Source: Gordonia asplenii
GTDB lineage: Bacteria; Actinomycetota; Actinomycetes; Mycobacteriales; Mycobacteriaceae
Direction of reading: 5' to 3'
DNA: 64,000 nt
Assembly (NCBI RefSeq): GCF_012933505.1
Contig: NZ_JABBNB010000001.1
Coordinates: forward strand, 372,001 to 436,000
How positions within the stretch are numbered: position 1 is the stretch's first letter; every line of letters starts with the position of its first letter. The position numbers and the translations under genes were made by a program. This document shows positions 34,998-47,630 of the stretch, one piece after another. The notes under the pieces are model-generated. The model saw nothing but the letters and a program-made list of their open reading frames with translations. It was not told the DNA's origin and made no database searches.

Positions 34998-36926
34998 ATG
35001 AGTGTGCTGGAGACGATCAGCTCACCGGCCGATCTGGCGGGGCTGGACCAGCAGCAGATGACCGAGTTGGCCGTCGAGATCCGGGAGTTCCTCGTCGACA
35101 AGGTCACCGCGGTCGGTGGTCACCTCGGCCCCAACCTCGGGGTGGTCGAGCTGACCCTGGCGATCCATCGCGTCTTCGACTCACCCACCGATCCGGTGAT
35201 CTTCGACACCGGCCACCAGTGCTATGTGCACAAGATCGTCACCGGCCGGCGGGACGGTTTCGACGAGTTGCGCCAGCGCGGCGGGCTGACCGGATACCAG
35301 GAACGGGCGGAGAGCCCGCACGACTGGGTCGAGTCGTCGCACGCGTCGGCGGCGCTGTCCTACGCCGACGGGCTGTCGAAGGCCTTCGAATTGCGCGGTG
35401 AGGATCGCACGGTCGTCGCCGTCGTCGGCGACGGCGCGCTCACCGGCGGCATGTGCTGGGAGGCGCTGAACAACATCGCCGCCGCGCGCCGGCCGGTGGT
35501 GATCATCGTCAACGACAACGGGCGGTCGTACGCGCCGACGGCCGGCGGCTTCGCCCAGCATCTGTCCGGGCTGCGACTGCAGCCCGGCTACGAGAAGTTC
35601 CTCGACGAGAGTCGCCGTGCGCTCAAGCAACTGCCCGTCGTCGGGCCGCCGACCTATGCGGTCCTACACGGCATGAAGAGCGGACTCAAGGACCTGCTCG
35701 CACCGCAGGCGATGTTCGCCGACCTCGGGCTCAAATACGTCGGCCCGGTCGACGGCCACGACGAGGAGGCGCTGGAGGCGGCGCTGCGCTCGGCCAAGTC
35801 GTTCGGACGGCCCGTCATCGTGCACGCGGTCACTCGCAAGGGCATGGGGTATGCGCACGCGGAGAACCACGAGGCCGACCAGATGCACGGCATCGGCGTC
35901 ATCGACCCGGCGACTGGGCGCTCGAAATCCGTTGCGGCACAAGACTGGACGTCGGTGTTTTCGGGTGCCCTGGTGGAGGCGGGCGGTCGCCGCGACGACG
36001 TCGTCGCAATCACCGCGGCGATGGCCGCACCCACCGGGCTGGCACCGTTCGGCGAGAAGTTCCCCGACCGGCTCTACGACGTCGGGATCGCCGAACAGCA
36101 CGCGATGACGTCGGCGGCAGGCCTGGCGCTGGGCGGCATGCATCCCGTCGTCGCGATCTACGCGACCTTCCTCAACCGCGCGTTCGACCAGATGCTGATG
36201 GACGTCGCGCTGCTCAAACTGCCGGTCACCATCGTGCTCGACCGGTCCGGCATCACCGGCCCCGACGGCCCCAGTCACCACGGCATGTGGGACCTCAGTC
36301 TGTTCTCCATCGTGCCGGGTATCCGTGTCGCCGCACCGCGCGACGCTGTGCGGCTGCGCGAGGAACTCGACGAGGCGCTCGCCGTCGACGACGGTCCGAC
36401 CGCCGTGCGTTTCTCCAAAGGGGCTGTGCCAGAAGATATTCGGGCCACCGCGCGGCTCGATGACGGCGTCGATGTGCTGAATCACACGCGCGCGGGCGGT
36501 GGCGCGCTCGCCGGGGACGTGCTGCTCGTCGGTGTCGGTGCGTTCTGCGGACTCGCCGTCGAGACCGCCGAACGGCTCGCGCAGCAGGGGATCGAGGCGA
36601 CCGTCGTCGACCCGCGCTGGGTGCTGCCGGTGCCGCATTCCCTGGTCGATCTCGCCCGCAGGCACACGCTGGTGGTGACCGTCGAAGACGGTCTGGCCTC
36701 CGGTGGTGTTGGGTCGGCGATCAGTGATCTGTTGTCCGACAACGATGTTCATGTCCCGGTGGTGCGGCGCGGCGTCGACAAACGGTTCATCGAGCATGCC
36801 TCACGCGGCGAGATCCTGGCCGAGTTGGGGCTCACGGCTCAGGATCTCGCGCGCACGATCACCGCGACGGTGTCGGGCATGTCTCCGGCGCCCGCGGTGA
36901 GTCTCGACGAGACCGCGGGTCGGTAG
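34998..36926 (+). CDS. dxs: 1-Deoxy-D-xylulose-5-phosphate synthase
   Basis: This 642-residue thiamine diphosphate enzyme makes DXP from pyruvate and glyceraldehyde 3-phosphate, the first committed step of the MEP isoprenoid pathway. The TPP motif is [16 protein letters not shown] with [10 protein letters not shown] downstream. The pyrimidine domain has [15 protein letters not shown] and the transketolase C-terminal domain is complete. The ATG at 34998 has GAGGAGGA upstream. The last 68 bases overlap the C-terminal codons of the convergent APC permease gene, an unusually long overlap. It is the isoprenoid entry enzyme in the window. Confidence 0.96.
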
Positions 36927-38334
36927 CGGATTCGGCGGGTTCGCCCCGGCGTCGACCGGCGAGAACAGCGCCGAGGACCGCTGCGACGGGCAACGCCCAG
37001 GGCAGTGAGTTGATCCAGGTGACCGTCGACCCGGTCAACGTCGGGTAGTTGGCGACCATCAGGACCAGTGCCACGGCGAATCCGACGACCGCCAGGGCCG
37101 GTGCGACGATGCTGGTGACGACCGACTCGGTCAGCCGGTTGCGCAGGAAGTAGGCAACGATCGAGGTCGCCGCAATGGCCTGCAGCACGACGATGCCGAG
37201 CACGCCGAGCCCATAGAAGCTGATCCCCATGCTGAGGTACGGGTGCTGACCGGCCACGCCGAAGCCGACGGTGAAGACGATGACGACGACGAGCTGGGCG
37301 GCGCTGGCCGCGACCGGTGAGTGGTGGCGGGAATTGATGCGCGCCAGGAAGCGGGGGAGCAGCCCGTCGCGGGCCAGTGCCACGTGGTAGCGGGCGGTGT
37401 TGCAGTGGAAGGCGAGGAACGCCGCGAACAGGCTGGTCACGACCAGGATCGCCATCATATCGGTGACAGCCTTGCCCAGATACTGGGTGGACGCGTTGAA
37501 GATGAAGTTCTCGGTGTCGGCCTGCGCGGCCTGCTGGGCCTTGCCGACCCCGTAGGCGCTGATGGCCGCCCAGCTGATCAGCACGTAGAAGACGGTGATG
37601 ACGGCGAGGGACAGGTAGGTCGCGCGGGGCACCGAGCGCCGCGGGTCGCGTGCTTCCTCACCGTAGAGGGAGGTCGCCTCGAAGCCGACGAAGGAACCGA
37701 ACGCGAGCATCAGGCTGATGCCGAATCCGCCGCCGAAGACCGCGGCGGGTGCGAACACGTGCATCGAGAAGCCGTGGAAGCCCAGGCGGACCAGCACCGC
37801 TACGTTGAAGGCGAGCAGGATCAGCACCTCGGCGGCGAGCGCGACGGCCAGTACCTTGGCGCTGGCGGTGACTTCGAAATACGACAGGACGGCCACCGCG
37901 ATGAGGCAGACGACGGCCACCGCGGGCCACGGCACGCTGACGCCGAACAACTGACTGGCGACGTCGGAGCCGTAGTAGACCAGACCGCCGAAGATCCCGA
38001 CGGTCGCGGCGTTGTAGGCGACTACCGCGACCATCGCCGTCGCGCCGCCCGCGCGGCGGCCGAGTCCTTCCTGGGCGAAGGTGTAGAAGCCGCCGACGTT
38101 GGTGATGCGGCGGCTCATCTTGATGTATCCCGCGCTGAACAGCGCGAGGATCGCGCCGGCGACGACGTAGGCGCCCGGTACGCCTGCGCCGGTGCCGCGG
38201 GCGATCGACACGGCGAGGATGGCGACGACGACGCCCATCGGGGCGACGCCGGCGAGAACGAAGAACACGATGTCGGCGGTGGTGAGACCGGTGCCGCTCT
38301 TGAGTTCGTCGGGTGAGGATTGGGTCGTGGACAT
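36859..38334 (-). CDS. APC-family amino acid permease
   Basis: This 491-residue permease has about 12 helices, starting [20 protein letters not shown]. The ATG at 38334 is better than ATG 38343: the GGAGA ribosome site is about 8 bases upstream of the former but directly abuts the latter. A Ser/Arg/Pro-rich tail of about 30 residues is encoded opposite the end of dxs, perhaps an extension gained by read-through of a lost stop codon. It diverges from a TetR regulator over two perfect palindromes, so it is probably repressed by that regulator. The substrate, an amino acid or amine, is unknown. Confidence 0.85.
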
Positions 38335-38364
38335 CGGGTGCATTCTCCGTGGCTAGGCTGGACG

Positions 38365-38385
38365 AGAGTCATTGCGACTGACTCT
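38365..38385. promoter_or_regulatory. Candidate TetR operator 1
   Basis: This is a perfect 7-bp inverted repeat, AGAGTCA and TGACTCT with a 7-base spacer (21 bp). It lies 31-51 bases upstream of the permease start, in the 152-bp region shared with the TetR gene. Confidence 0.6.
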
Positions 38386-38388
38386 GGC

Positions 38389-38416
38389 AATTCAAGTAAT
38401 ACACACGACTTGAATT
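38389..38416. promoter_or_regulatory. Candidate TetR operator 2
   Basis: This is a perfect 9-bp inverted repeat, AATTCAAGT and ACTTGAATT with a 10-base spacer (28 bp), starting 3 bases after operator 1. It is A/T-rich compared with the surroundings. It is the longest arm-matched palindrome seen between divergent genes here and is a strong candidate regulator site. Confidence 0.65.
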
Positions 38417-38486
38417 GAGTAGGATCATATGGCGGGCATCACAGTTGCGCAATGGCCAATGTGCGGCCGGGTGAAAGAGGTAGGCG

Positions 38487-39104
38487 ATGAAGTACGTGGA
38501 AGCGTCGGTGCGGCGCCCGCAGTTGGTGGCCGCGGCGCAGGTCGTGTTGGCGCGCGACGGCGTGGCCGGTACCGCGTTGCGGGCGGTCGCGGCCGAGGCG
38601 GGGGTGTCGCTGGGAACCGTGCAGCATGTCTTCGGGTCGAAGGCCGAACTGTTGCGCGCGGTCATCGAAGACGTCGTCCACGGCATTGCCGAAGTACTCG
38701 ACGATGCCGCGCACCTGGGCTCGGGCTTGGAGTTCGCGATCCGCGACGGGATGACCGGCTTCTGGGACATCCTGGTCGCCGACGAGGTGAACCTGCAGAT
38801 CATGCAGTACGAGTTGACGTTGTACGCGCTCCGGGAGCCGGGCCAGGCGGAACTCGCGCGCTGGCAGTACCAGCGCTACGGTGAGATCGTCGCGAGCTGG
38901 TGTGAGAACGCGGCGCGCAACGCCGGGGAGACCTGTGCGGTTCCCTTCGATCAGCTCGGGCGGCTGATCGTCAGCGGCATCGACGGAATCCTGATCCAAT
39001 ACCTGGTCGAGCGCGATGCTCGGCGTGCGCGCGCCGACTTGGCGGCCACCATCAAGATGCTCGTCGGGTTGGCCGACGTACGGCTGGCGCCCGCGCCGCT
39101 GTAG
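38487..39104 (+). CDS. TetR/AcrR family transcriptional regulator
   Basis: This is a 205-residue TetR regulator. The helix-turn-helix region is ALRAVAAEAGVSLGTVQHVFGSKAELLRAV at about residues 30-59, followed by an all-helical ligand domain. The ATG at 38487 has AGAGG at a 7-base distance. It diverges from the APC permease gene. Both perfect palindromes in the shared region are natural binding sites, giving autoregulation and control of the permease. The ligand is unknown. Confidence 0.9.
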   Translation: MKYVEASVRRPQLVAAAQVVLARDGVAGTALRAVAAEAGVSLGTVQHVFGSKAELLRAVIEDVVHGIAEVLDDAAHLGSGLEFAIRDGMTGFWDILVADEVNLQIMQYELTLYALREPGQAELARWQYQRYGEIVASWCENAARNAGETCAVPFDQLGRLIVSGIDGILIQYLVERDARRARADLAATIKMLVGLADVRLAPAPL

Positions 39105-39466
39105 TCGGCGTCAGGTGTCGGACTGGTGCTTACGTGTTGTTCGACTGCCTGTGACGCGCGCGCATTCGGAATCGTACGTATGTATTGAAAATGCCCGTGG
39201 TGACAGCCCGTCGTCCGCTCTGTTGTTCCGTGGCCGCGAGGTCGCGAGACGTTCGGCGAACACCTGGGCTCGTAGCTGCTCAGCGGCGACGACGAGTTGA
39301 CTTGAACGCGATACGACCCGGTCAGATCGCGGCGATTCGCGAAGAACATCCGAAATCATGTGAAATTCCAGCGAACAGTTTCGCCCACGCGCCGCCAAAT
39401 GGATGAGTTGTGCGGGCTGGGTCGCTAATGTGCGCAACGGGGCGGGAACCGCAACGAAGGAGAATC
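39105..39466. other. 362-bp gene-free region
   Basis: No coding sequence or clear promoter is supported here. The stretch is somewhat richer in A/T than the flanking genes, for example around 39170-39190. It ends with a ribosome site (GAAGGAGAATC) for the small gene at 39467. A promoter for that gene is expected but no convincing -35/-10 pair is visible. Confidence 0.5.
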
Positions 39467-39691
39467 ATGGCTGTATCGGTAAACCTGGCGAAGGCGCTCG
39501 ACAAGGCTTATGAGGACAAGGACCTGTCCGAGATCCTGGATGCGCCGCCGTCGGCGCTCGCGGGCCTGACCGAGAAGCACGACGCCGCGCTCAAGGAAGC
39601 CTTGAACATCAAGACGATTCGCGAGCTCGGAACCAACAAGTTCATCGCGGTCGCCAGCGTGCTCGCCGCACTCGAGGGCAAGACCGGCTAG
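39467..39691 (+). CDS. Small helical actinobacterial protein, helix-hairpin-helix-like
   Basis: This 74-residue protein recurs in mycolic-acid bacteria, usually annotated hypothetical. It is predicted all-helical, with VNLAKALDKAYEDKDLSEILDAPPSALAGL first and ALNIKTIRELGTNKFIAVA second, the latter resembling a helix-hairpin-helix DNA-binding element. The start is set by AAGGAG 5 bases before ATG 39467; ATG at 39410 lacks such a site. A perfect hairpin (39699-39747) follows. Function is unknown. Confidence 0.8.
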   Translation: MAVSVNLAKALDKAYEDKDLSEILDAPPSALAGLTEKHDAALKEALNIKTIRELGTNKFIAVASVLAALEGKTG

Positions 39692-39698
39692 GACGGCT

Positions 39699-39747
39699 CC
39701 GACGTCGGGTCCCGATCGCGTCCGCCGCGGCCGCGACCCGACGTCGG
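39699..39747. terminator. Long GC-rich hairpin after the 74-residue gene
   Basis: Perfect 13-bp arms, CCGACGTCGGGTC and GACCCGACGTCGG, flank a 23-base GC-rich loop. It starts 7 bases after the stop codon, with no T-run. The convergent methyltransferase ends at 39801, so it may stop transcription both ways. Confidence 0.6.
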
Positions 39748-39800
39748 TCGGCACCTGCCCCGGCCGCCGGACAGATCTCACGTCGCGGTGCCGTTGAACA

Positions 39801-40580
39801 CTACGTAGAAGGGGCCGATACCCCAGGGTCGGTGTGCGTGCAGAACAGCGCCACCGCGTTGTTGGCTGCGGTCACACCCGCCGGGCCGATCGCGGCGCGC
39901 AATCGACTGCGCAGTGTGCGCTGCGTGTCCGCGTCGAGAACCAGCTGGTGCGAATAGGTGAAGACCATGTCCAGGTACGCATCGGCGTCGTAGTGCGACC
40001 GTTCGTGGTATTCGCGGTAGTCGACGGCGAATCCGGCGTCGGTGAGCTCCTGCAGCGCGCGATCGCGACCCCCGTCGAAGCCGTGCGCGGCGACCGGTAC
40101 GCCCCGCACGTCGGCATGAATCTCGTCGAACACGATCTGCTCGGGTTCGACCGCGGCGATGCGGTTCCACATCAACACCAGTTGGCCGCCGGCCGGCAGC
40201 AGGTGCACGACCTTGTCCAACGCAGGACTTGGTTGCACCCAATGAAACGATTGCGCGAACACCACGCGGTCGAACATCCGCCGGTCGGAGTGCCACTGCT
40301 CGAACGTGCTGATCTCGACGTCGATGCCCTTGTCCGCCGCGACGCGGGCCATCCGCTCGTCGGGCTCCACCGCAACAACCCGCGCGCCGGCATCACGCAG
40401 CTGGACCGAGGCGATTCCAGTGCCCGCGCCCACGTCGAGCACTCGCAGACCGGCACGTGGGACCACGTCGGCGATGAGCGCAGCGGGATACCGCGGGCGA
40501 AACGCGTCATACGCGGCCGCCGCCGACCCGAACGACTCCGCCCGACGACGATCCTCATAGGACCGCGGTATGCCCGTCAC
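39801..40580 (-). CDS. Class I SAM-dependent methyltransferase
   Basis: This 259-residue Methyltransf_11-type enzyme has motif I LRVLDVGAGTGIAS (about residues 44-57), motif II RVVAVEPDERM, then FDRVVFAQSFHWVQPSPALDK and LLPAGGQLVLMWNR. The C-terminal 100 residues contribute a cap. The ATG at 40580 is the only good start. The substrate is unknown; such enzymes methylate small molecules. It is followed on the same strand direction by no coupled gene, and the HxlR gene lies upstream 138 bp away. Confidence 0.87.
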   Translation of the reverse strand: MTGIPRSYEDRRRAESFGSAAAAYDAFRPRYPAALIADVVPRAGLRVLDVGAGTGIASVQLRDAGARVVAVEPDERMARVAADKGIDVEISTFEQWHSDRRMFDRVVFAQSFHWVQPSPALDKVVHLLPAGGQLVLMWNRIAAVEPEQIVFDEIHADVRGVPVAAHGFDGGRDRALQELTDAGFAVDYREYHERSHYDADAYLDMVFTYSHQLVLDADTQRTLRSRLRAAIGPAGVTAANNAVALFCTHTDPGVSAPST

Positions 40581-40718
40581 CGGGCCGCCTTCGACATTCC
40601 CGGGACTCGCTCCGGTTGAGTGCAGATCACCTCGCCAACGGTACTCACGATCGTCCGCTCCGGCTCGACGTCGGTGCGACCGATCCGCTGACCGCGGGAG
40701 ATTCCTTGGCAGACAAGT

Positions 40719-41672
40719 CTATTCGTGCTCGGACTCGACGACGGGTTCGATCGACACGCCGCCCGACGTCAGCTCGACACGGCACCGATCACAGGCCAGA
40801 CGTGGACGGAACTCGTGGCCGGTGCCGCGGTGGGTGAAGATCAACGCGGGCCCCTCGGGAGCGTGAAACCACCGCTGCCCCCACGTGATCATGAACACCA
40901 CGACGGGAAAGAAGGCGAGACCCTTGCCGGTCAGCCGATAACTGACCCAGTCGGGTCGGGCGGGGTTGGGGACGGTGTCGACGGCACCGAGGCGCACGAA
41001 CCGAGCCAATCGGTCGGCCACCATGGTCGGTGGAGCACTGGTCCGTTCGGAGAATTCGCCGAACCGGTGCGCGCCGAGAAACAGTGCCCCGAGGATGGCC
41101 GCCGACCAGCGGTCGCCCAGCAGTTCCATGGTGTGCGCCAACATCTGCGACGGCTGCTTGGCTTTCGCCGAACGGCGTCGCGCGATCGACGCTGGGACGC
41201 TGCGCGACCATACCCCGCTCGGTCCGAGGTCGGCGACGACGTCGTGTACGTCCACCGCCTTGCCGCACTCGCGGCAGATCAGCATCGGCGAGAACAACTC
41301 TCCGCAGGTCAGGTGGCGCATCTCCGGCAACGGAGGCGACGACGTGGGGGCCCACACCTGTTCCCAGGCCCACATGCTCAGCAGCAGCGTCCAGACGCCC
41401 GCGCCGCGTCGGGTCAACACATACTCGTACCGATCGGGCCGCTGCGCGTACTGGACACGTTCGAACAGCCCCTTCTCGGTGAGGTTCGCCAGACGCGACG
41501 ACAACACCGAATTCGAGATCGCGCCCTGGCCCATCCAATCGCCGTACCGCTGGGCGCCCTGCACCGCGTGCCGCAGGATCCACAGGTTCCACTCGTCGCC
41601 GAGAATGCCCAAGGCAACCGCGATGGCGTTGTCGCCGTCGGGTTCGAGTGTGGTGACGCGGTCGCACTCCAC
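40719..41672 (-). CDS. Transcriptional regulator with two tandem HxlR domains
   Basis: This 317-residue regulator contains two HxlR winged-helix domains, at about residues 18-107 (LGILGDEWNLWILRHAVQG) and 188-275 (MELLGDRWSAAILGALFLG). Each is followed by a CxxC motif (ICRECGK and ACDRCRV), so the whole domain-plus-zinc-knuckle unit appears duplicated. Single HxlR proteins of about 110 residues act as dimers; this one may bind DNA as an internal pseudo-dimer. It lies 15 bp after the nitronate monooxygenase-like gene in the same direction, making it the third gene of a leftward unit starting with the thiolase. It likely controls the divergent cluster through the operator at 43918-44001. Confidence 0.85.
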   Translation of the reverse strand: MECDRVTTLEPDGDNAIAVALGILGDEWNLWILRHAVQGAQRYGDWMGQGAISNSVLSSRLANLTEKGLFERVQYAQRPDRYEYVLTRRGAGVWTLLLSMWAWEQVWAPTSSPPLPEMRHLTCGELFSPMLICRECGKAVDVHDVVADLGPSGVWSRSVPASIARRRSAKAKQPSQMLAHTMELLGDRWSAAILGALFLGAHRFGEFSERTSAPPTMVADRLARFVRLGAVDTVPNPARPDWVSYRLTGKGLAFFPVVVFMITWGQRWFHAPEGPALIFTHRGTGHEFRPRLACDRCRVELTSGGVSIEPVVESEHE

Positions 41673-41687
41673 TTCGAGACCCCTCGC

Positions 41688-42638
41688 TCAGGTGGCGCTG
41701 CCGACGGCGCTGCGCTGTGCGAGTCGACGGCACGCGGCGTCGTATTGCGCCTCCAGTCGGTCGACCACGTCCGCGACCGGCTCGACGGCGTCGATCGACG
41801 ACAATCCCTGCCCGGCGGCCCAGACGTCGCGCCATCGGGCGGGAACGCCGCCGGCGGAGTCGTAGGTGCGGGCGCCGGTGAAGGCCATGCGGTCGGGATC
41901 GAATCCGTTCGCGATCAGACTGGGGCGCAGCCAGGAGGCGTCGGCTCCGGTGACGCCGTCGCTCACGACGAGGTCGTCTGCGGTGGAGTCGACGACCATC
42001 TGCTTGTACGCCTGCGGTGCCATCGATTCGGTGGTCGCCAGAAACCGGGTGCCCATGTACACCAGGTCGGCGCCGGCCGCGATGGCACCCGCGACGCCCG
42101 CGCCGTCGGCGATCCCGCCGCCGACGGTGACGATTCCGTCGAAGAACTCGCGGACCGCACTGACGAACGCGAACGGCGAGAGGTGTCCGGTGTGTCCGCC
42201 GGCTCCGCTCGATACGCACGCGAGACCGTCCACGCCGGCGGCGACGGCCTTGCGCGCCAACGCAATCGATACGACGTCGGCGATCACGACGCCGCCGTAG
42301 GACTTGACCACGTCGATCGCCGGGGCGGGGGAGCCCAGCGCGGTGATGACGATGCCCGGTCGGTGTTCGGCGACCAGACGCAGATCCTCGGCGAGTCGCG
42401 TGTTGGTGCGGTGGGTGATCAGATTCAGCGCCCAGGGGGCCGTGTCCGACGCCCCGACGCTATCGGCGATCGTGCCCATCCAGGTGTCGAGCTCGGCGGT
42501 GGTTCGGCAGTTTGGGCTGGGGAACGACCCCACCACCCCGGCGCGGCACGCCGCGACCACCAGTTCGACGCCAGAGACCAGGAACATCGGTGCGGCGACG
42601 ACCGGCAAGCGCAGATGCTGCGAGATGGGTTGTGTCAT
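41688..42638 (-). CDS. Nitronate monooxygenase-like FMN protein
   Basis: This 316-residue TIM-barrel flavoprotein belongs to the 2-nitropropane dioxygenase/nitronate monooxygenase family. The N-terminal LRLPVVAAPMFLVSGVELV, LNLITHRTNTR, and CVSSGAGGHTGHLSPFAFV with the catalytic-type His, and VTVGGGIADGAGVAGAIAAGADLVYMGTRFLAT (phosphate loop) are present. The ATG at 42638 was chosen because it precedes the first strand; ATG 42653 adds 5 residues. In this gene context it may act as an FMN-dependent enoyl reductase or oxidase on a CoA or ketone intermediate rather than on nitronates; that is inference. Confidence 0.85.
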   Translation of the reverse strand: MTQPISQHLRLPVVAAPMFLVSGVELVVAACRAGVVGSFPSPNCRTTAELDTWMGTIADSVGASDTAPWALNLITHRTNTRLAEDLRLVAEHRPGIVITALGSPAPAIDVVKSYGGVVIADVVSIALARKAVAAGVDGLACVSSGAGGHTGHLSPFAFVSAVREFFDGIVTVGGGIADGAGVAGAIAAGADLVYMGTRFLATTESMAPQAYKQMVVDSTADDLVVSDGVTGADASWLRPSLIANGFDPDRMAFTGARTYDSAGGVPARWRDVWAAGQGLSSIDAVEPVADVVDRLEAQYDAACRRLAQRSAVGSAT

Positions 42639-42666
42639 AGTCGAATTCCTCACTCTCGAGCCGTGC

Positions 42667-43887
42667 TCAGCCGACGACGAAGCTCGCGACGGTGGTCGTA
42701 CTGCCGCCGATGTTCAGTGTGGCGGCCCGCCGGGCGCCGTCGACCTGGTACCCGCCCGCGGTGCCGGTGATTTGCCGGTGACAGTCGAGCAGCATGCGAA
42801 TCCCGGTGGCGCCCACCGGATGTCCGCCGCCGAGCAGGCCGCCGCTCGGGTTCATCGCGACGCGGCCGCCGATCTCCAGTTCGCCGTCGGCGATCGCCCG
42901 CCAACTCTCGCCCGGCGCGGTGAGCCCGAAATGGTCGATCGCCAGGTATTCGCTGATCGTGAAGCAGTCGTGGGTCTCGATGACGTCCAGACCGTCGACA
43001 TCGTCGACGCCCGCCCGCCCGAGCGCATCCGCGATCGTGTCGGCCACGTGCGGGAACACCAGTTCTGCGCCTGCGCTGCGGGCCAGCTTGTCCTCAAGCA
43101 GCAGACCGACGGTGCGGTGACCCCAGCCGAGGACGCGCGAGCACCCCGACGAGTCGAGTGCCGGATGGGTGCGCCGATAACGGTCGGAGACCAGTACGAC
43201 ACCGGCTCCACCGTCGGTCAGCGGGCCGCAGTCGACTTTGCGCAGTCGGCCTTCGACGATCGGGTTGGCATCGTCGTCGTCGGTGAACGACGCCGGGTGA
43301 TACTCCCAGCCGCGCGTCTGCGCCAACGGATTTCTGCGGGCGTTGCGCGAGTTCAGCTCGGCGATCTGCCACAGGTACGTCGCGTCGAGCCCGTAGCGCT
43401 TGTCGTACTCCTCGGTGATGCGGCTGAACATGTACGGCCACATGAAGTTCGCGTCGCGACCCTCCTCGCCGATCCACGCGGCACCGGCCATGTTCCGCGC
43501 TCCGACGTCGCCGGGGACGTTCTTCTCCAGCTCCGCGCCGACGACGAGTGCGCAGTCGTAGCGTCCCGACTCCAGATCGGCCATGGCCGCGAGGATCGCC
43601 AGCGATCCGGAGGCGCACGCCCCCTCGTGCCGGCTCGCGGGCACACTCCAGAGTTCGGGCCGGACCGACGCGGGCATCGCTCCCAGGTGCCCCTGCCCGG
43701 TGTAGACCTGCCCGAACGCATTGCCGACGTGAATCACGTCGACGTCGTCGACGGGGACGCCCGACGCCGCCAGTGTTCCCGCCACAACCTCGTCGAACAG
43801 CGTGGCGAGGCCACCGCCTTCTCGGGTCAGATTGCGGGCGAAGTCGGATTGGTATCCGCCGGTGATCCATACGGTGGTGTCAGACAT
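42667..43887 (-). CDS. Thiolase family protein (acetyl-CoA acetyltransferase/SCP2-like)
   Basis: This 406-residue thiolase-like enzyme keeps the nucleophilic cysteine in HEGACASGS (Cys91), the middle motif THDCFTISEYLAIDHFGL and the C-terminal GGGHPVGATG with its catalytic His. The layout fits the SCP2-type thiolases used to cleave sterol or branched acyl-CoA side chains. It is first in a leftward unit with the nitronate monooxygenase-like gene (28 bp later) and HxlR. It diverges from the carotenoid oxygenase gene over 140 bp. It probably removes an acyl-CoA unit after CoA activation by the neighbouring ligase. Confidence 0.88.
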   Translation of the reverse strand: MSDTTVWITGGYQSDFARNLTREGGGLATLFDEVVAGTLAASGVPVDDVDVIHVGNAFGQVYTGQGHLGAMPASVRPELWSVPASRHEGACASGSLAILAAMADLESGRYDCALVVGAELEKNVPGDVGARNMAGAAWIGEEGRDANFMWPYMFSRITEEYDKRYGLDATYLWQIAELNSRNARRNPLAQTRGWEYHPASFTDDDDANPIVEGRLRKVDCGPLTDGGAGVVLVSDRYRRTHPALDSSGCSRVLGWGHRTVGLLLEDKLARSAGAELVFPHVADTIADALGRAGVDDVDGLDVIETHDCFTISEYLAIDHFGLTAPGESWRAIADGELEIGGRVAMNPSGGLLGGGHPVGATGIRMLLDCHRQITGTAGGYQVDGARRAATLNIGGSTTTVASFVVG

Positions 43888-43917
43888 CTTGACGAATCGC
43901 TTTCGGAGACGAGTCAG

Positions 43918-44001
43918 CTACAACTGCGAGAGTAATGAAGTCGAATCGTCGAGGGAAGTCTTGACAACCCCTGGCTGACTCGGTCACTCTCGTAACTGTA
44001 G
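43918..44001. promoter_or_regulatory. Divergent operator with inverted 18-bp boxes
   Basis: Box 1, CTACAACTGCGAGAGTAA (43918-43935), and box 2, TCACTCTCGTAACTGTAG (43984-44001), are reverse complements at 14 of 18 positions. They flank the middle of the 140-bp region between thiolase and carotenoid oxygenase genes. TTGACA at 43961-43966 lies between them and faces the oxygenase gene, with the -10 position falling in box 2. They look like binding sites for a shared regulator, most simply the HxlR protein encoded in the same cluster. Confidence 0.6.
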
Positions 44002-44027
44002 TCAGTTCTTCGGAGGAAGTTGAGGCA

Positions 44028-45545
44028 ATGGAGATCGAGGTACTGGGCAAGCTGCTCTCGACGCTGCCCGCAGACGACGACCATCCCTACCGAACCGGAC
44101 CGTGGCGGCCGCAGACCACCGAGTGGAAGGCCGACGACCTCACCGTCGTATCCGGCGAGATCCCCGCGGACCTCGACGGCGTGTATCTGCGCAACACCGA
44201 GAACCCGCTGCATCCGGCGATCAAGAACTATCACCCCTTCGACGGCGACGCGATGATCCACGTGGTGGGCTTCCGCGATGGAAAGGCGTTCTACCGCAAC
44301 CGATTCGTGCGAACAGACGGCATGCTCGCCGAGTACGAGGCGCAGCGGCCGCTGTGGGCCGGGGCCTCGGAGATGCCCGAGTGGGCGCAGCGCGAGGACG
44401 GTTGGGGCGCGCGGCGTCGGATGAAGGACGCGTCGAGCACCGACGTCGTGGTGCACCGGGGAACCGCGTTGAGCAGCTTCTGGATGTGCGGGGATCTGTA
44501 TCGTATCGATCCCTATTCCGCTGCGACCCTCGGCAAAGAGGACTGGAACGGCGCATTCCCGTATCACCTCGGCGTCTCGGCGCATCCCAAAGTCGATGAC
44601 CGGACCGGTGAGCTGCTGTTCTTCAACTACAGCAAAGAGGCGCCGTATATGAAATACGGCGTCGTCGATGCAGACAACAATCTGGCACACTACGTCGATA
44701 TCCCGTTGCCCGGCCCGCGTCTGCCGCACGATATGGCATTCACCGAGAACTACGCCATCCTCAACGATCTGCCGCTCTTCTGGGACGAGGAGTTGCTGAA
44801 ACGCGGTGTGCATCATCCGCGCTTCCACCGCGGCATGCCCGCACGATTCGGGGTCATCCCGCGTCGCGGACAGTCGTCCGATATCAGGTGGTTCGAGGCC
44901 GATCCGACGTATGTGCTGCATTTCGCGAATGCCTACGAAGACGGCGAGGAGATCGTCCTGGAAGGCTTCTACCAGGGTGAGCCGGAACCGAAAGCCGACG
45001 GTATCGCCGATAAATGGCAACGCGCGTTTCGATTCCTTGCGCTCGATCACATGCAGTCGCGCCTGCATCGCTGGCGGTTCAATCTGCGCACCGGGCAGAC
45101 GAGGGAAGAATCACTGACCGATCAGATCACCGAATTCGGCATGATCAACGGTGCTCACGCCGGAGTTCGACATCGGTACGTGTATGCCACGTCCGGCGTC
45201 GACGGGTGGTTCCTGCTCAACGGCGTCGTGAAGCATGACACTGAAACCGGTGTCGAGGAATCATTCCGTTTCGGAGACGGAGTGTTCGGCAGTGAAGCGT
45301 CGATGGCGCCTCGTATCGGTAGCACCGACGAAGACGACGGCTATCTGATCACGTTGACCACCGATATGAACGACGACGCGTCCTATTGTGTCGTATTCGA
45401 CGCCAAACGTGTCTCCGATGGTCCGGTTTGCACTCTGCAATTACCGGAGCGCATTTCCAGCGGAACACACTCCACGTGGGCGGCGGGCAGTGAATTGCGT
45501 CGGTGGCGCAATGTCGACAATGCGGCGCAGGCGGTAGGACTGTAA
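44028..45545 (+). CDS. Carotenoid oxygenase family dioxygenase
   Basis: This 505-residue seven-bladed propeller enzyme is of the carotenoid/lignostilbene cleavage oxygenase family. The four iron-binding histidines are all present: His186 (SAHPKVD), His234 (LPHDMAF), His298 (LHFANAY) and His481 (GTHSTWA). FDGDAMIHVV (71-80) is the first family signature. These enzymes split C=C bonds of carotenoids, stilbenes or phenylpropenes with O2. The ATG at 44028 has GGAGG at an 11-base distance. No carotenoid biosynthesis genes lie nearby, and the CoA ligase downstream and thiolase opposite suggest a catabolic route, so a lignostilbene- or isoeugenol-like substrate is more likely than a carotenoid, though unproven. 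Confidence 0.92.
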   Translation: MEIEVLGKLLSTLPADDDHPYRTGPWRPQTTEWKADDLTVVSGEIPADLDGVYLRNTENPLHPAIKNYHPFDGDAMIHVVGFRDGKAFYRNRFVRTDGMLAEYEAQRPLWAGASEMPEWAQREDGWGARRRMKDASSTDVVVHRGTALSSFWMCGDLYRIDPYSAATLGKEDWNGAFPYHLGVSAHPKVDDRTGELLFFNYSKEAPYMKYGVVDADNNLAHYVDIPLPGPRLPHDMAFTENYAILNDLPLFWDEELLKRGVHHPRFHRGMPARFGVIPRRGQSSDIRWFEADPTYVLHFANAYEDGEEIVLEGFYQGEPEPKADGIADKWQRAFRFLALDHMQSRLHRWRFNLRTGQTREESLTDQITEFGMINGAHAGVRHRYVYATSGVDGWFLLNGVVKHDTETGVEESFRFGDGVFGSEASMAPRIGSTDEDDGYLITLTTDMNDDASYCVVFDAKRVSDGPVCTLQLPERISSGTHSTWAAGSELRRWRNVDNAAQAVGL

Positions 45546-45604
45546 CGCTACCATTCGACAGCGAGGGGGAAGACGGGCGAAGCAACAGTCGGAGGAAATG
45601 GCCA

Positions 45605-47317
45605 ATGGTCGCCTTGAAACGCGGGCTTCATCCGCAAGCCCGCATCGACCGCTACCGCGAACGCGGCTGGTGGTCGGACCGCACCCTCGACCGCGTCTTC
45701 GCCGACCAGGCCGCTGCGCGCGGCGACGCACTCGCGATCGCCGACCCCGCCAATCGCGCCGCGCTGCTGGGATCGACTCCGCGGCGGCTGACGTGGAACG
45801 AAGTCGACGACGAGGTGACCTTTCTCGCCGCGCGGCTGCTCGAATACGGCGTCACACGCGGTGACGTCATCGGCGTGCAATTGCCCAACACGATCGAACT
45901 CGCCGAGGTCTACCTGGCGGCTTGGATGATCGGCGCGGTGGTCTCACCGCTGGCCATGCAATACCGTGAGCGCGAACTGACGGCGATGGCGAACAAAGCC
46001 GAATTCGTGCTGTTCATCACCACCGGCACATTCGGCGGGCGTCGTCCCGCGGCGTCGGCCGACGCCATCCGTGACGAACTGCCGCAATTGCGCGCCGTGC
46101 TCACCTTCGGCGACGCCGCCGACGCCGGCGGCGGTGACGGACATATCACGCCCGGCAGCGCCCGGCCCGGCGATTGCGAGACGCTCGCGGCGTATCGTCG
46201 AGCCGACCCCAATGACCCCAACGACTGTGTCACGATCTGCTGGACGTCGGGCACCACCGGTGAACCGAAAGGCGTGCCGCGCACCCATTACGACTGGCTC
46301 GCATTCACCGTCTCGACTATCGGCGCGCCGCACGTCGTCGCCGACGACGTGTTGTTGAATCCGTTCCCGATGATCAACATGGCTGGAATCTGCGGCATGT
46401 TTCTGCCGTGGATCTGCACCGGTGCCACCTTGATTCAGCACCATCCATTCGACGCGGTGACATTCTTCGGTCAGATAGCGGCGGAGAAGGTCACCTATAC
46501 GCTCGCACCTCCGGCACTGTTGTGGAAACTGCTCAACGATGAGTCGCTGCTCGACGCGGTCGATATCTCCACACTGACGCGAGTCGGGTCGGGCTCGGCT
46601 CCACTGCAGCCGGCTATGGTACGCGGATGGCAAGAGAAACACGGATTGAATGTCATCAATTTCTTCGGCTCGAATGAAGGCGTATCGCTGCTGTCCGACC
46701 CCGTCGACTTCCCCGATCCCGACACTCGCGCGCGCTTCTTTCCCCGGTATGGAACGCCCGGAGTGTCGTGGGAGTCGGCCATAGCCGACCGCACCGTCGT
46801 GAAGATCGTCGACGTCGAGACCGGCGCCGAAATCACCGAGCCGGGGCGCCCGGGAGAATTGTTGATCGGCGGACCGGGAGTCTTCCCCGGCTATCTCGAC
46901 GGCGCGAATCTCGCCTGCCCGTTCGACGCCGACGGACTTCTCAAGACCGGCGACATGTTCGAGATCGACGGGGAACAGAATCAATACTTGCGCTACGTCG
47001 ACCGCTGCAAAGATCTCATCATCCGCGGTGGAATGAACGTCGCGCCGGCCGAACTCGAGGGGCTCATCGCCGAACACCCCGCCGTGGCCGAATGCGCCGT
47101 CGTCGGCGATCCCGACGACTCTCTCGGCGAGACGGTCGCGGCGGTCGTCGTGCTGAATGCCGGGCAGCGCCTCACCCTCGGCGATCTGACCGACTTCCTC
47201 AGGTCGCAGCGCATCGCGTCCTACAAACTCCCCGAGCGGCTCGAAATACGAGAATCATTGCCGCGCAACGCAGTAGGCAAACTGATGAAACGCGAACTTC
47301 GCCGGCTGGCGGGTTGA
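45605..47317 (+). CDS. AMP-dependent acyl-CoA synthetase/ligase
   Basis: This is a 570-residue ANL-family CoA ligase. The P-loop WTSGTTGEPKGVP is at about residues 215-227. YGTPG, LLKTGDMFEIDG and the hinge/C-terminal RCKDLIIRGGMNVAPAELEGLI follow, with catalytic lysine in NAVGKLMKREL near the end. GGAGGAAATG precedes ATG 45605; the longer frame from 45503 would overlap the oxygenase gene and lacks a ribosome site. It follows the carotenoid oxygenase gene by 59 bp and is likely co-transcribed. It probably activates the acid formed after oxidative cleavage. Confidence 0.92.
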   Translation: MVALKRGLHPQARIDRYRERGWWSDRTLDRVFADQAAARGDALAIADPANRAALLGSTPRRLTWNEVDDEVTFLAARLLEYGVTRGDVIGVQLPNTIELAEVYLAAWMIGAVVSPLAMQYRERELTAMANKAEFVLFITTGTFGGRRPAASADAIRDELPQLRAVLTFGDAADAGGGDGHITPGSARPGDCETLAAYRRADPNDPNDCVTICWTSGTTGEPKGVPRTHYDWLAFTVSTIGAPHVVADDVLLNPFPMINMAGICGMFLPWICTGATLIQHHPFDAVTFFGQIAAEKVTYTLAPPALLWKLLNDESLLDAVDISTLTRVGSGSAPLQPAMVRGWQEKHGLNVINFFGSNEGVSLLSDPVDFPDPDTRARFFPRYGTPGVSWESAIADRTVVKIVDVETGAEITEPGRPGELLIGGPGVFPGYLDGANLACPFDADGLLKTGDMFEIDGEQNQYLRYVDRCKDLIIRGGMNVAPAELEGLIAEHPAVAECAVVGDPDDSLGETVAAVVVLNAGQRLTLGDLTDFLRSQRIASYKLPERLEIRESLPRNAVGKLMKRELRRLAG

Positions 47318-47630
47318 TTGCGCGGGGTGAGCCGGGCGAGCCGCACCCGCTCCGCTCCCCGAGTGCCGAAGCGGACTGTCGTGCCTACCCGAGCCGCAGC
47401 CCCTCCGCTCCCCGAGTGCCGAGGCGAGGTACGAGCTTCGGTGTAACGAGGGGTCGGTGCGACGAAGCACTCAACGGAACCCCAGAAACGTTGGAGACAA
47501 GCAGTTTTCGCCCATGGCGCTCGTGGTCACGATCCGACGCCATCTCACCGCATCTCGATCGCCGGCGGGCTCGCTGCGCTCGCACGACGGCACTCGATGA
47601 GCGAAACGCCATCGTGCCCCGCCAGCCGCC
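47318..47630. other. 313-bp gene-free region with two CGCTCCCCGAGTGCCG repeats
   Basis: No gene is supported between the convergent CoA ligase and RNase D-like genes. Two direct copies of TCCGCTCCCCGAGTGCCG followed by AAGCG or AGGCGA lie at 47351-47373 and 47404-47427. A third copy, inverted, is at 24440-24465. The rest shows no clear motif. Confidence 0.65.

Follow-up and report, generated by a model that had tools for sequence, protein, structure and literature searches.

Which compound is processed by a divergent set of five genes in Gordonia asplenii, and do these genes form a working unit at all? The question arises from a 64,000-nucleotide stretch of assembly GCF_012933505.1, called the window below (contig NZ_JABBNB010000001.1, here C1, positions 372001-436000; the genome measures 6.64 Mb in 131 contigs). 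There, an initial annotation had described a carotenoid-oxygenase-family dioxygenase and an acyl-CoA ligase on one strand, and a thiolase, a flavoprotein and a duplicated HxlR regulator on the other, as a dedicated catabolic route. All five genes are confirmed at their places, 40719..47317 of the window. Each is strongly matched by the profile of its assigned family, and the intergenic gaps of 59, 28 and 15 bp are correct when ATG 45605 is taken as the start of the ligase and ATG 42638 as that of the flavoprotein. What is observed comprises the genes themselves, the conservation of their association, the subfamily of the oxygenase and a regulator-linked promoter motif; the step order and the substrate we infer. 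The genes probably make up a dedicated, locally regulated catabolic module, in which alkene cleavage would be followed by CoA ligation and thiolysis. The module is much firmer than the substrate class, for which an apocarotenoid or ionone-type compound is a tentative guess. The features are as follows.

40719..41672, minus strand: double HxlR regulator (PF01638 in two stretches; alignment; AlphaFold2 model)
41688..42638, minus strand: nitronate monooxygenase/FabK-like FMN protein (start ATG 42638, reading frame open to 42653; PF03060)
42667..43887, minus strand: PRK06289-family thiolase (NF004936; SCP2-type by its C-terminal domain, PF22691)
43888..44027, no strand: divergent promoter region between thiolase and oxygenase, 140 bp (TTGAC at 43961, plus strand)
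43918..43933, minus strand: thiolase-facing motif copy ACTCTCGCAGTTGTAG (0 mismatches; sole perfect match in the genome)
43986..44001, plus strand: oxygenase-facing motif copy ACTCTCGTAACTGTAG (2 mismatches)
44028..45545, plus strand: carotenoid-oxygenase-family dioxygenase of the CCD1-sister clade, with Met at the ACO E150 position (PF03055; tree; residue counts)
45605..47317, plus strand: acyl-CoA ligase, class I adenylate-forming (PF00501)

Conservation of the cluster

A scan of genome contigs yielded 69 oxygenase loci from Gordonia, Nocardia, Rhodococcus, Dietzia, Mycobacterium, Mycolicibacterium, Aeromicrobium, Terrabacter, Leucobacter, Leekyejoonella and other genera, 54 of them with at least 3 kb on both sides. 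Neighbours were counted at identity cut-offs of 55% for the thiolase, 40% for the ligase, 50% for the nitronate monooxygenase-like flavoprotein, and 35% for both the double HxlR regulator and a second, classical thiolase. The thiolase lies near the oxygenase in 50 of the 54 loci (median distance 36 bp, maximum 428) and the regulator in 48 (median 29 bp, maximum 2519); the second thiolase is found in 15. As a control, six window genes flanking the cluster were counted, and a permease occurred in one locus and the other five in none. Ligase and flavoprotein are present in ten loci each, and set against the 50 for the thiolase, these counts define the usual core as oxygenase, thiolase and double HxlR regulator. 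An invariant five-gene core is therefore rejected, with ligase and flavoprotein optional. The co-occurrence of all five families that the initial annotation envisaged holds for the first three and fails for the other two, whose distributions do not follow that of the thiolase.

The cluster is conserved far beyond close strains and recurs in Alpha- and Betaproteobacteria, which supports the annotation's view of a dedicated catabolic unit. Within its own genus, the oxygenase is found at 66% identity or more in 11 of 59 genomes, its own included; in the family it occurs in 29 of 151 genomes and 9 of 31 genera (E <= 1e-150). The association together with these counts indicates a unit that is real, accessory and patchy, and such a distribution fits an accessory catabolic trait.

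Whole-genome searches covered 25 genomes, and only that of locus L037 has ligase and flavoprotein homologues within 10 kb of the oxygenase. Their scarcity in these searches suggests that oxygenase, thiolase and regulator suffice in many mycobacterial forms. Among the mycobacterial forms, five lack the double HxlR regulator and three lack a thiolase within reach, and the other neighbours appeared unrelated when judged by eye. Aeromicrobium endophyticum (G082) holds distant copies about 48 kb from its first oxygenase (L120:1634-16072): a second oxygenase (70% identical), a double HxlR regulator (49%), a flavoprotein (74%) and two ligases (46% and 62%).

The oxygenase and its subfamily

The oxygenase matches the RPE65/carotenoid oxygenase family PF03055 at E 1.1e-124, and the four iron histidines that the initial annotation had recognised (H186, H234, H298 and H481) are identical in all 110 alignment rows. 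Among named records, Gordonia namibiensis supplies its closest relative (87%), and the closest within its own genus is also 87% identical (G025). An AlphaFold2 model built from a 29-row alignment (mean pLDDT 79.2) has as its top fold match the plant enzyme CCD1 (9m3e, 30% identity), followed by the lignostilbene dioxygenase of P. brassicacearum. By fold, profile and histidines, the protein is a divergent member of the carotenoid oxygenase superfamily. The genome encodes a second carotenoid oxygenase on contig C41 (L119:5598; G000:C41:43588-44943), which is 34% identical and falls in a different clade, one where the second-sphere Glu is kept.

A maximum-likelihood tree was built from 69 of the 110 aligned rows; it included LsdA, the P. 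brassicacearum enzyme (LSD) and LSD4, and was made without isoeugenol monooxygenase, VP14, NOV1, CAO1 and Rv0654. The window oxygenase falls in an actinobacterial clade of 33 rows (support 100/100), nested in a clade of 43 rows that adds proteobacterial enzymes and those of a type-B gene set described below (100/99). This larger clade is sister to Osmanthus fragrans CCD1 (100/98), and the three lignostilbene dioxygenases branch apart from it. Support for the deepest split is low (78/61), and the branch leading to CCD1 is long. Of the placements that the initial annotation had considered, the tree therefore bears out separation from lignostilbene dioxygenases, with CCD1 as sister; a tight grouping with carotenoid enzymes is not found, because the sisterhood spans long branches.

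These results bear directly on the stilbene or phenylpropene substrate that the initial annotation had offered, for which a lignostilbene- or isoeugenol-type oxygenase would make aromatic aldehydes for the ligase and thiolase. Such enzymes share the superfamily, one of them is the second fold match, and related loci of Cupriavidus basilensis and Sphingopyxis granuli carry the aldehyde dehydrogenases that such aldehydes would need. However, aromatic aldehydes need no thiolase, and the window oxygenase stands outside the lignostilbene clade. The lignostilbene Tyr and Lys are present in 8 of 8 lignostilbene-type rows, whereas neither occurs in any of the 84 rows of the window's clade, and the window has Ala and Trp at these columns. 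In CAO1, this Tyr binds the 4'-hydroxyl of stilbenoids, as described in passages of PMC12051055. The score against the lignostilbene dioxygenase model NF053778 is 211 bits, under the cut-off of 800. Tree and residues reject the lignostilbene reading, and stilbene or phenylpropene catabolism is very unlikely. The CCD1 model NF052295 is likewise matched below its cut-off (226.8 bits against 675).

The iron site carries a further mark of the subfamily. Passages of PMC12051055 and PMC6060882 describe three of the four histidines in this family as hydrogen-bonded to second-sphere carboxylates. The window oxygenase has two of the three, E369 and E423, and Met at the third, the equivalent of E150 in Synechocystis ACO (a position assigned from printed numbering). 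This glutamate is replaced in all 84 clade rows (Gln in 60, Met in 18, Leu in 4, Arg in 2), whereas all 8 lignostilbene-type rows and 16 of the 18 remaining rows have Glu there. Both exceptions outside the clade, L095 and L104, carry Gln, so the replacement is not exclusive to it. The glutamates equivalent to E369 and E423 are retained across the clade except for one Gln in a proteobacterial row.

Companion enzymes

The thiolase scores 622.3 bits against PRK06289 (NF004936), well above the curated cut-off of 375, and its C-terminal domain profile matches at E 2.3e-27. It is termed SCP2-type from that domain; the nearest solved structures are 3-ketoacyl-CoA thiolases or thiolase-like proteins (3zbg, 4bi9), and the SCP2-thiolase 6hsj ranks lower. 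Its cysteine sits in a GACASG stretch, which we take to be the thiolase motif. Other copies in the genome are at most 35% identical, and no orthologue of the second, classical thiolase was found there, with nothing above 39%.

The ligase matches the AMP-binding family PF00501 at E 7.8e-68. Its best model with a named substrate is cyclohexanecarboxylate-CoA ligase, at 280 bits under a cut-off of 792. The flavoprotein matches the nitronate monooxygenase family PF03060 (E 1.1e-21; 78 bits against a gathering score of 28), which makes nitronate oxidation a putative activity. Its best matches in the PDB are FabK-type enoyl-ACP reductases, and it scores 96.8 bits against FabK TIGR03151, under the cut-off of 453.

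The regulator and its candidate operator

The regulator matches HxlR PF01638 in two stretches (E 2.8e-32), in keeping with the duplication that had been reported. Its AlphaFold2 model, of high confidence (mean pLDDT 92.6), contains two winged-helix units, each leading into a short strand-rich, ribbon-like segment with conserved cysteines and histidines. Across a 29-row alignment, H120, C123, C133, C136, H281, C294 and C297 are invariant. The best sequence and fold matches, PA1607 and PA1374, each span one half of the protein.

The 140-bp promoter between thiolase and oxygenase holds two inverted copies of a 16-bp motif, ACTCTNNNAGTTGTAG, one toward each gene, a feature absent from the initial annotation. 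Ten loci of Gordonia, Nocardia, Rhodococcus and Dietzia served, together with the window, to derive the motif. It was found again in loci of Terrabacter, Aeromicrobium and Mycobacterium that had played no part in its derivation, once more upstream of either thiolase or oxygenase. Across the window and the 69 loci, perfect matches number 36, and every one lies no more than 1.7 kb upstream of where the oxygenase starts; the same holds for 53 of the 64 matches at up to two mismatches. At least one match is present in 46 of the 70 loci. At up to two mismatches, the motif accompanies the double HxlR regulator in 41 of 48 well-flanked loci, against none of the six that lack it. The consensus has low self-complementarity, 8 of 22 positions at best; such an asymmetric site would fit a fused regulator whose two halves recognise different DNA.

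On a genome-wide scale, perfect copies point to this locus: the only one in the 6.64-Mb genome lies here, as do 22 of 24 in 22 other genomes. Of the remaining two, the match in L142 has no open reading frame start nearby in a mechanical list, and that in L163 lies inside one frame, about 230 bp from the start of another; the latter may be a further regulon site. A one-mismatch match in the window's own genome (L124) is inside an open reading frame. A wider regulon defined by the motif was looked for in the genome itself (up to two mismatches) and in the 22 others (up to one), and is rejected. At two mismatches, the motif was not found in the proteobacterial or type-B loci; at four, a scan of these loci other than L103 gave two weak matches.

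Related sets on plasmids and a type-B variant

Oxygenases of the same kind occur on proteobacterial plasmids: pRK1-2 of C. basilensis (48.5% identical to the window's), pENH92 of C. necator NH9 (47.0%) and pRW412b of S. granuli (42.5%). All three plasmids also have a ligase, a nitronate monooxygenase homologue and a thiolase. In C. basilensis and S. granuli, the ligase is 42% and 41% identical, the nitronate monooxygenase homologue 51% and 49%, and the thiolase is of a different, classical type (PRK08242-like, 459 and 429 bits, under the cut-off of 514). NH9 proteins are 80-91% like their C. basilensis counterparts. The C. basilensis regulator is a double HxlR, to which that of NH9 is 85% identical, and the S. 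granuli regulator aligns across both halves of the window's at 24%. The plasmid sets also carry genes for an aldehyde dehydrogenase, a short-chain dehydrogenase/reductase, an alpha/beta hydrolase and porin, MFS or TonB proteins. The pENH92 set (L092:7101-20664) is a compact island between transposase and recombinase genes and is possibly a mobile catabolic unit. In C. necator C39, the oxygenase, a PRK06289-like thiolase (56%), a ligase and a second oxygenase stand together.

On another plasmid, pSYA3-2 of Sphingobium yanoikuyae (L093:3953-9182), a lignostilbene-type oxygenase (428 bits to LsdA) adjoins an aldehyde dehydrogenase near pobA; a match of the same score lies on a Sphingomonas bisphenolicum plasmid.

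A type-B set is present in two Gordonia genomes and one Nocardia genome (L102, L103, L122). It comprises a hotdog thioesterase, a PaaN-like aldehyde dehydrogenase, oxygenase, ligase, thiolase and a double HxlR homologue. Two thiolases are present in L102 and L103, and the oxygenase resembles that of Cupriavidus at 45%. The families were assigned by scanning the copies in L103, among which the PaaN-like protein (543 bits, cut-off 579) and the PcaF-like thiolase (399, cut-off 597) stay below their thresholds and the thioesterase exceeds its domain cut-off (74.4 bits against 36.6). The repeated pairing of this oxygenase clade with a thiolase and a double HxlR regulator, even where thiolase types are swapped, suggests that thiolysis is part of the pathway.

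The type-B set also brings in a different explanation, in which a cyclic or linear acid of polyketide or aromatic type is opened in a CoA-dependent manner and the oxygenase replaces the epoxidase and hydrolase of the phenylacetate (paa) route. The ligase, PaaN-like, PcaF-like and thioesterase genes of L103 represent the kinds of step found in that route, and the window ligase has cyclohexanecarboxylate-CoA ligase as its best match with a named substrate. Yet the PaaN, PcaF and cyclohexanecarboxylate ligase matches all fall under their curated cut-offs, and the window's own set, type A, is without an adjoining PaaN or thioesterase gene. We know of no carotenoid oxygenase that acts on CoA thioesters. 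This explanation is unlikely.

Turnover of the cell's own carotenoids might likewise account for the oxygenase, since a single phytoene/squalene synthase homologue is encoded in the genome, on contig C49. That gene, however, is on another contig, and the more distant C41 oxygenase could fill such a role. The local motif, the carriage of related sets on plasmids with porin, TonB receptor and MFS genes, and the patchy distribution suggest a compound from outside, and make an endogenous carotenoid an extremely doubtful substrate.

A proposed pathway and its weight

In the proposed catabolic module, the double HxlR regulator would bind both motif copies in the shared promoter and would release or activate transcription upon sensing the substrate or a CoA or aldehyde product. 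The oxygenase would split a conjugated C=C bond of a non-phenolic compound, probably isoprenoid or apocarotenoid-like and taken up from outside, into two carbonyl products. The ligase would convert the resulting acid to its CoA thioester, the FMN protein may reduce an enone or enoyl-CoA, and the PRK06289 thiolase would remove acetyl units, helped in some relatives by the second, classical thiolase. In species with only oxygenase, thiolase and regulator, other sources would provide the ligase and the reductase. The sole pointers to an apocarotenoid-like substrate are the oxygenase's kinship with CCD1 and its lack of phenol-binding residues.

CCD1 kinship also raises the possibility of abscisic acid catabolism, where a CCD1-type cut at C2=C3 of abscisic acid, equivalent to the 9,10 bond by our own derivation, would give dehydrovomifoliol for the remaining genes to degrade. 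This product has been seen in Rhodococcus sp. P1Y. Passages of PMC7996341 and PMC9599779 describe how this strain attacks abscisic acid at the side chain, forming first dehydrovomifoliol and later rhodococcal acid, through enzymes that await discovery. Glyoxylate, the other expected product, did not support growth of that strain, however (PMC7996341, in the passages covered), and neither P1Y nor Novosphingobium sp. P6W is among the 69 loci or the plasmid matches listed. The literature passages on abscisic acid name no catabolic genes. Abscisic acid as the dedicated substrate is highly improbable.

Several observations weigh against the proposed module. Ligase and flavoprotein are missing from most loci, and elsewhere in the 25 whole genomes they are scarce as well: the ligase (E <= 1e-80) is found in at least four (two at 63%, two at 45-47%), a lower bound since scoring in most genomes covered 55 candidates out of a longer list, and the flavoprotein at 60% or more in the same four. 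Locus L024 carries the oxygenase alone. C. necator C39 shows no match to the double HxlR regulator or flavoprotein, and Polaromonas sp. P1-6, which has the oxygenase, none to thiolase, double HxlR regulator or flavoprotein within a 31-kb stretch. No acyl-CoA dehydrogenase or hydratase belongs to the window set or is listed near the oxygenase in L086, L088 and L092. Kinship with CCD1 is remote (identity near 30%, with long branches), and the Foldseek E values of CCD1 and lignostilbene dioxygenase are nearly equal (1.9e-39 and 3.1e-39), so fold rank by itself is undecisive. The link between regulator and motif is correlative: its Fisher p of 6.6e-5 ignores kinship and overstates independence, because five of the six loci without the double HxlR regulator are mycobacterial. 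At up to two mismatches, the motif is not enriched in the window's own genome, with 38 matches against 155 for a reversed-pattern control, and weak matches are therefore treated as chance.

Genomic setting

The ribonuclease-D gene near the cluster is present in 59 Gordonia genomes, of which 30 loci were compared, one being the window's own. In 22 of the 29 others, dxs adjoins it, the two matches being separated by 8 to 662 bp; the remaining seven have no dxs match within the compared flank. In the window, about 10.7 kb (36927-47630) separates the two genes and holds the cluster with permease, TetR, 93-amino-acid and methyltransferase genes. Given the usual adjacency, the cluster-bearing segment is most simply, and likely, a gain by insertion at a fixed dxs/ribonuclease-D junction, and the proximity of dxs is probably incidental. 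Genome G011, whose ribonuclease-D is the nearest (84%), has no oxygenase of the window's clade, and there the 93-amino-acid gene adjoins ribonuclease-D without the cluster.

To the left of the cluster (36859-39104) lie an amino-acid permease and a TetR gene. One Gordonia locus has a pair of 39% and 37% similarity (L113:15318-17630) at a distance of about 1.4 kb from its cluster, and the pair is missing from the 54 well-flanked loci, except for one permease.

Relation to known systems and biological meaning

The oxygenase, the thiolase and the regulator have known counterparts from which they depart. With Osmanthus fragrans CCD1 (9m3e, 9m6z, 7vud), its best fold match and sister, the oxygenase shares fold and the four iron histidines, but it is bacterial, lacks one of three second-sphere glutamates, lies across long branches and belongs to an operon-like set with a thiolase and its own regulator. 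Lignostilbene dioxygenases (LsdA, P. brassicacearum LSD, LSD4) and NOV1/CAO1 share superfamily, histidines and a catabolic setting, yet the former lie in a different clade (NOV1 and CAO1 being outside the tree), and the window enzyme lacks the Tyr/Lys pair. Synechocystis ACO has the same fold and two of the same glutamates (E369 and E423 here), whereas its E150 is Met in the window and Gln in most relatives; the structure of an ACO Glu150Gln mutant, 5kjd, is among the fold matches. The PRK06289 model description names only 'acetyl-CoA acetyltransferase' and no other substrate, while the window thiolase is tied to a putatively alkene-cleaving oxygenase. PA1607 (2f2e) and PA1374 (4gcv) are single-domain HxlR proteins with a C-terminal extension, whereas the window regulator fuses two divergent copies and faces a largely asymmetric 16-bp candidate site.

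No paper describing the gene set was found in the open-access literature, judged by title and the start of the abstract. The paper on the M. massiliense island MmGI-1 mentions a carotenoid oxygenase once, and the passages covered present the island as one of lipid metabolism. The parts belong to known families, whereas their combination, the subfamily of the oxygenase and the pairing of regulator with motif look new.

These genes reveal an uncharacterised oxygenase subfamily of actinobacteria and proteobacteria, joined to CoA-dependent degradation, its own regulator and a candidate operator. The regulator and operator should make the substrate findable and the promoter usable as a sensor, and the missing glutamate offers a natural variant of a much-studied iron site. 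A more specific proposal, quite unlikely in its full form, is that the two-glutamate subfamily cuts a conjugated alkene in an apocarotenoid-type plant signal akin to abscisic acid or the ionones, or in the CoA thioester of such a signal, that dedicated thiolases consume the side chain, and that the fused double HxlR regulator reads an asymmetric site. If true, these would be, to our knowledge, the first genes known to let bacteria degrade a signal of this type. Should the substrate be a plant apocarotenoid, the cluster would bear on how soil bacteria remove plant signals.

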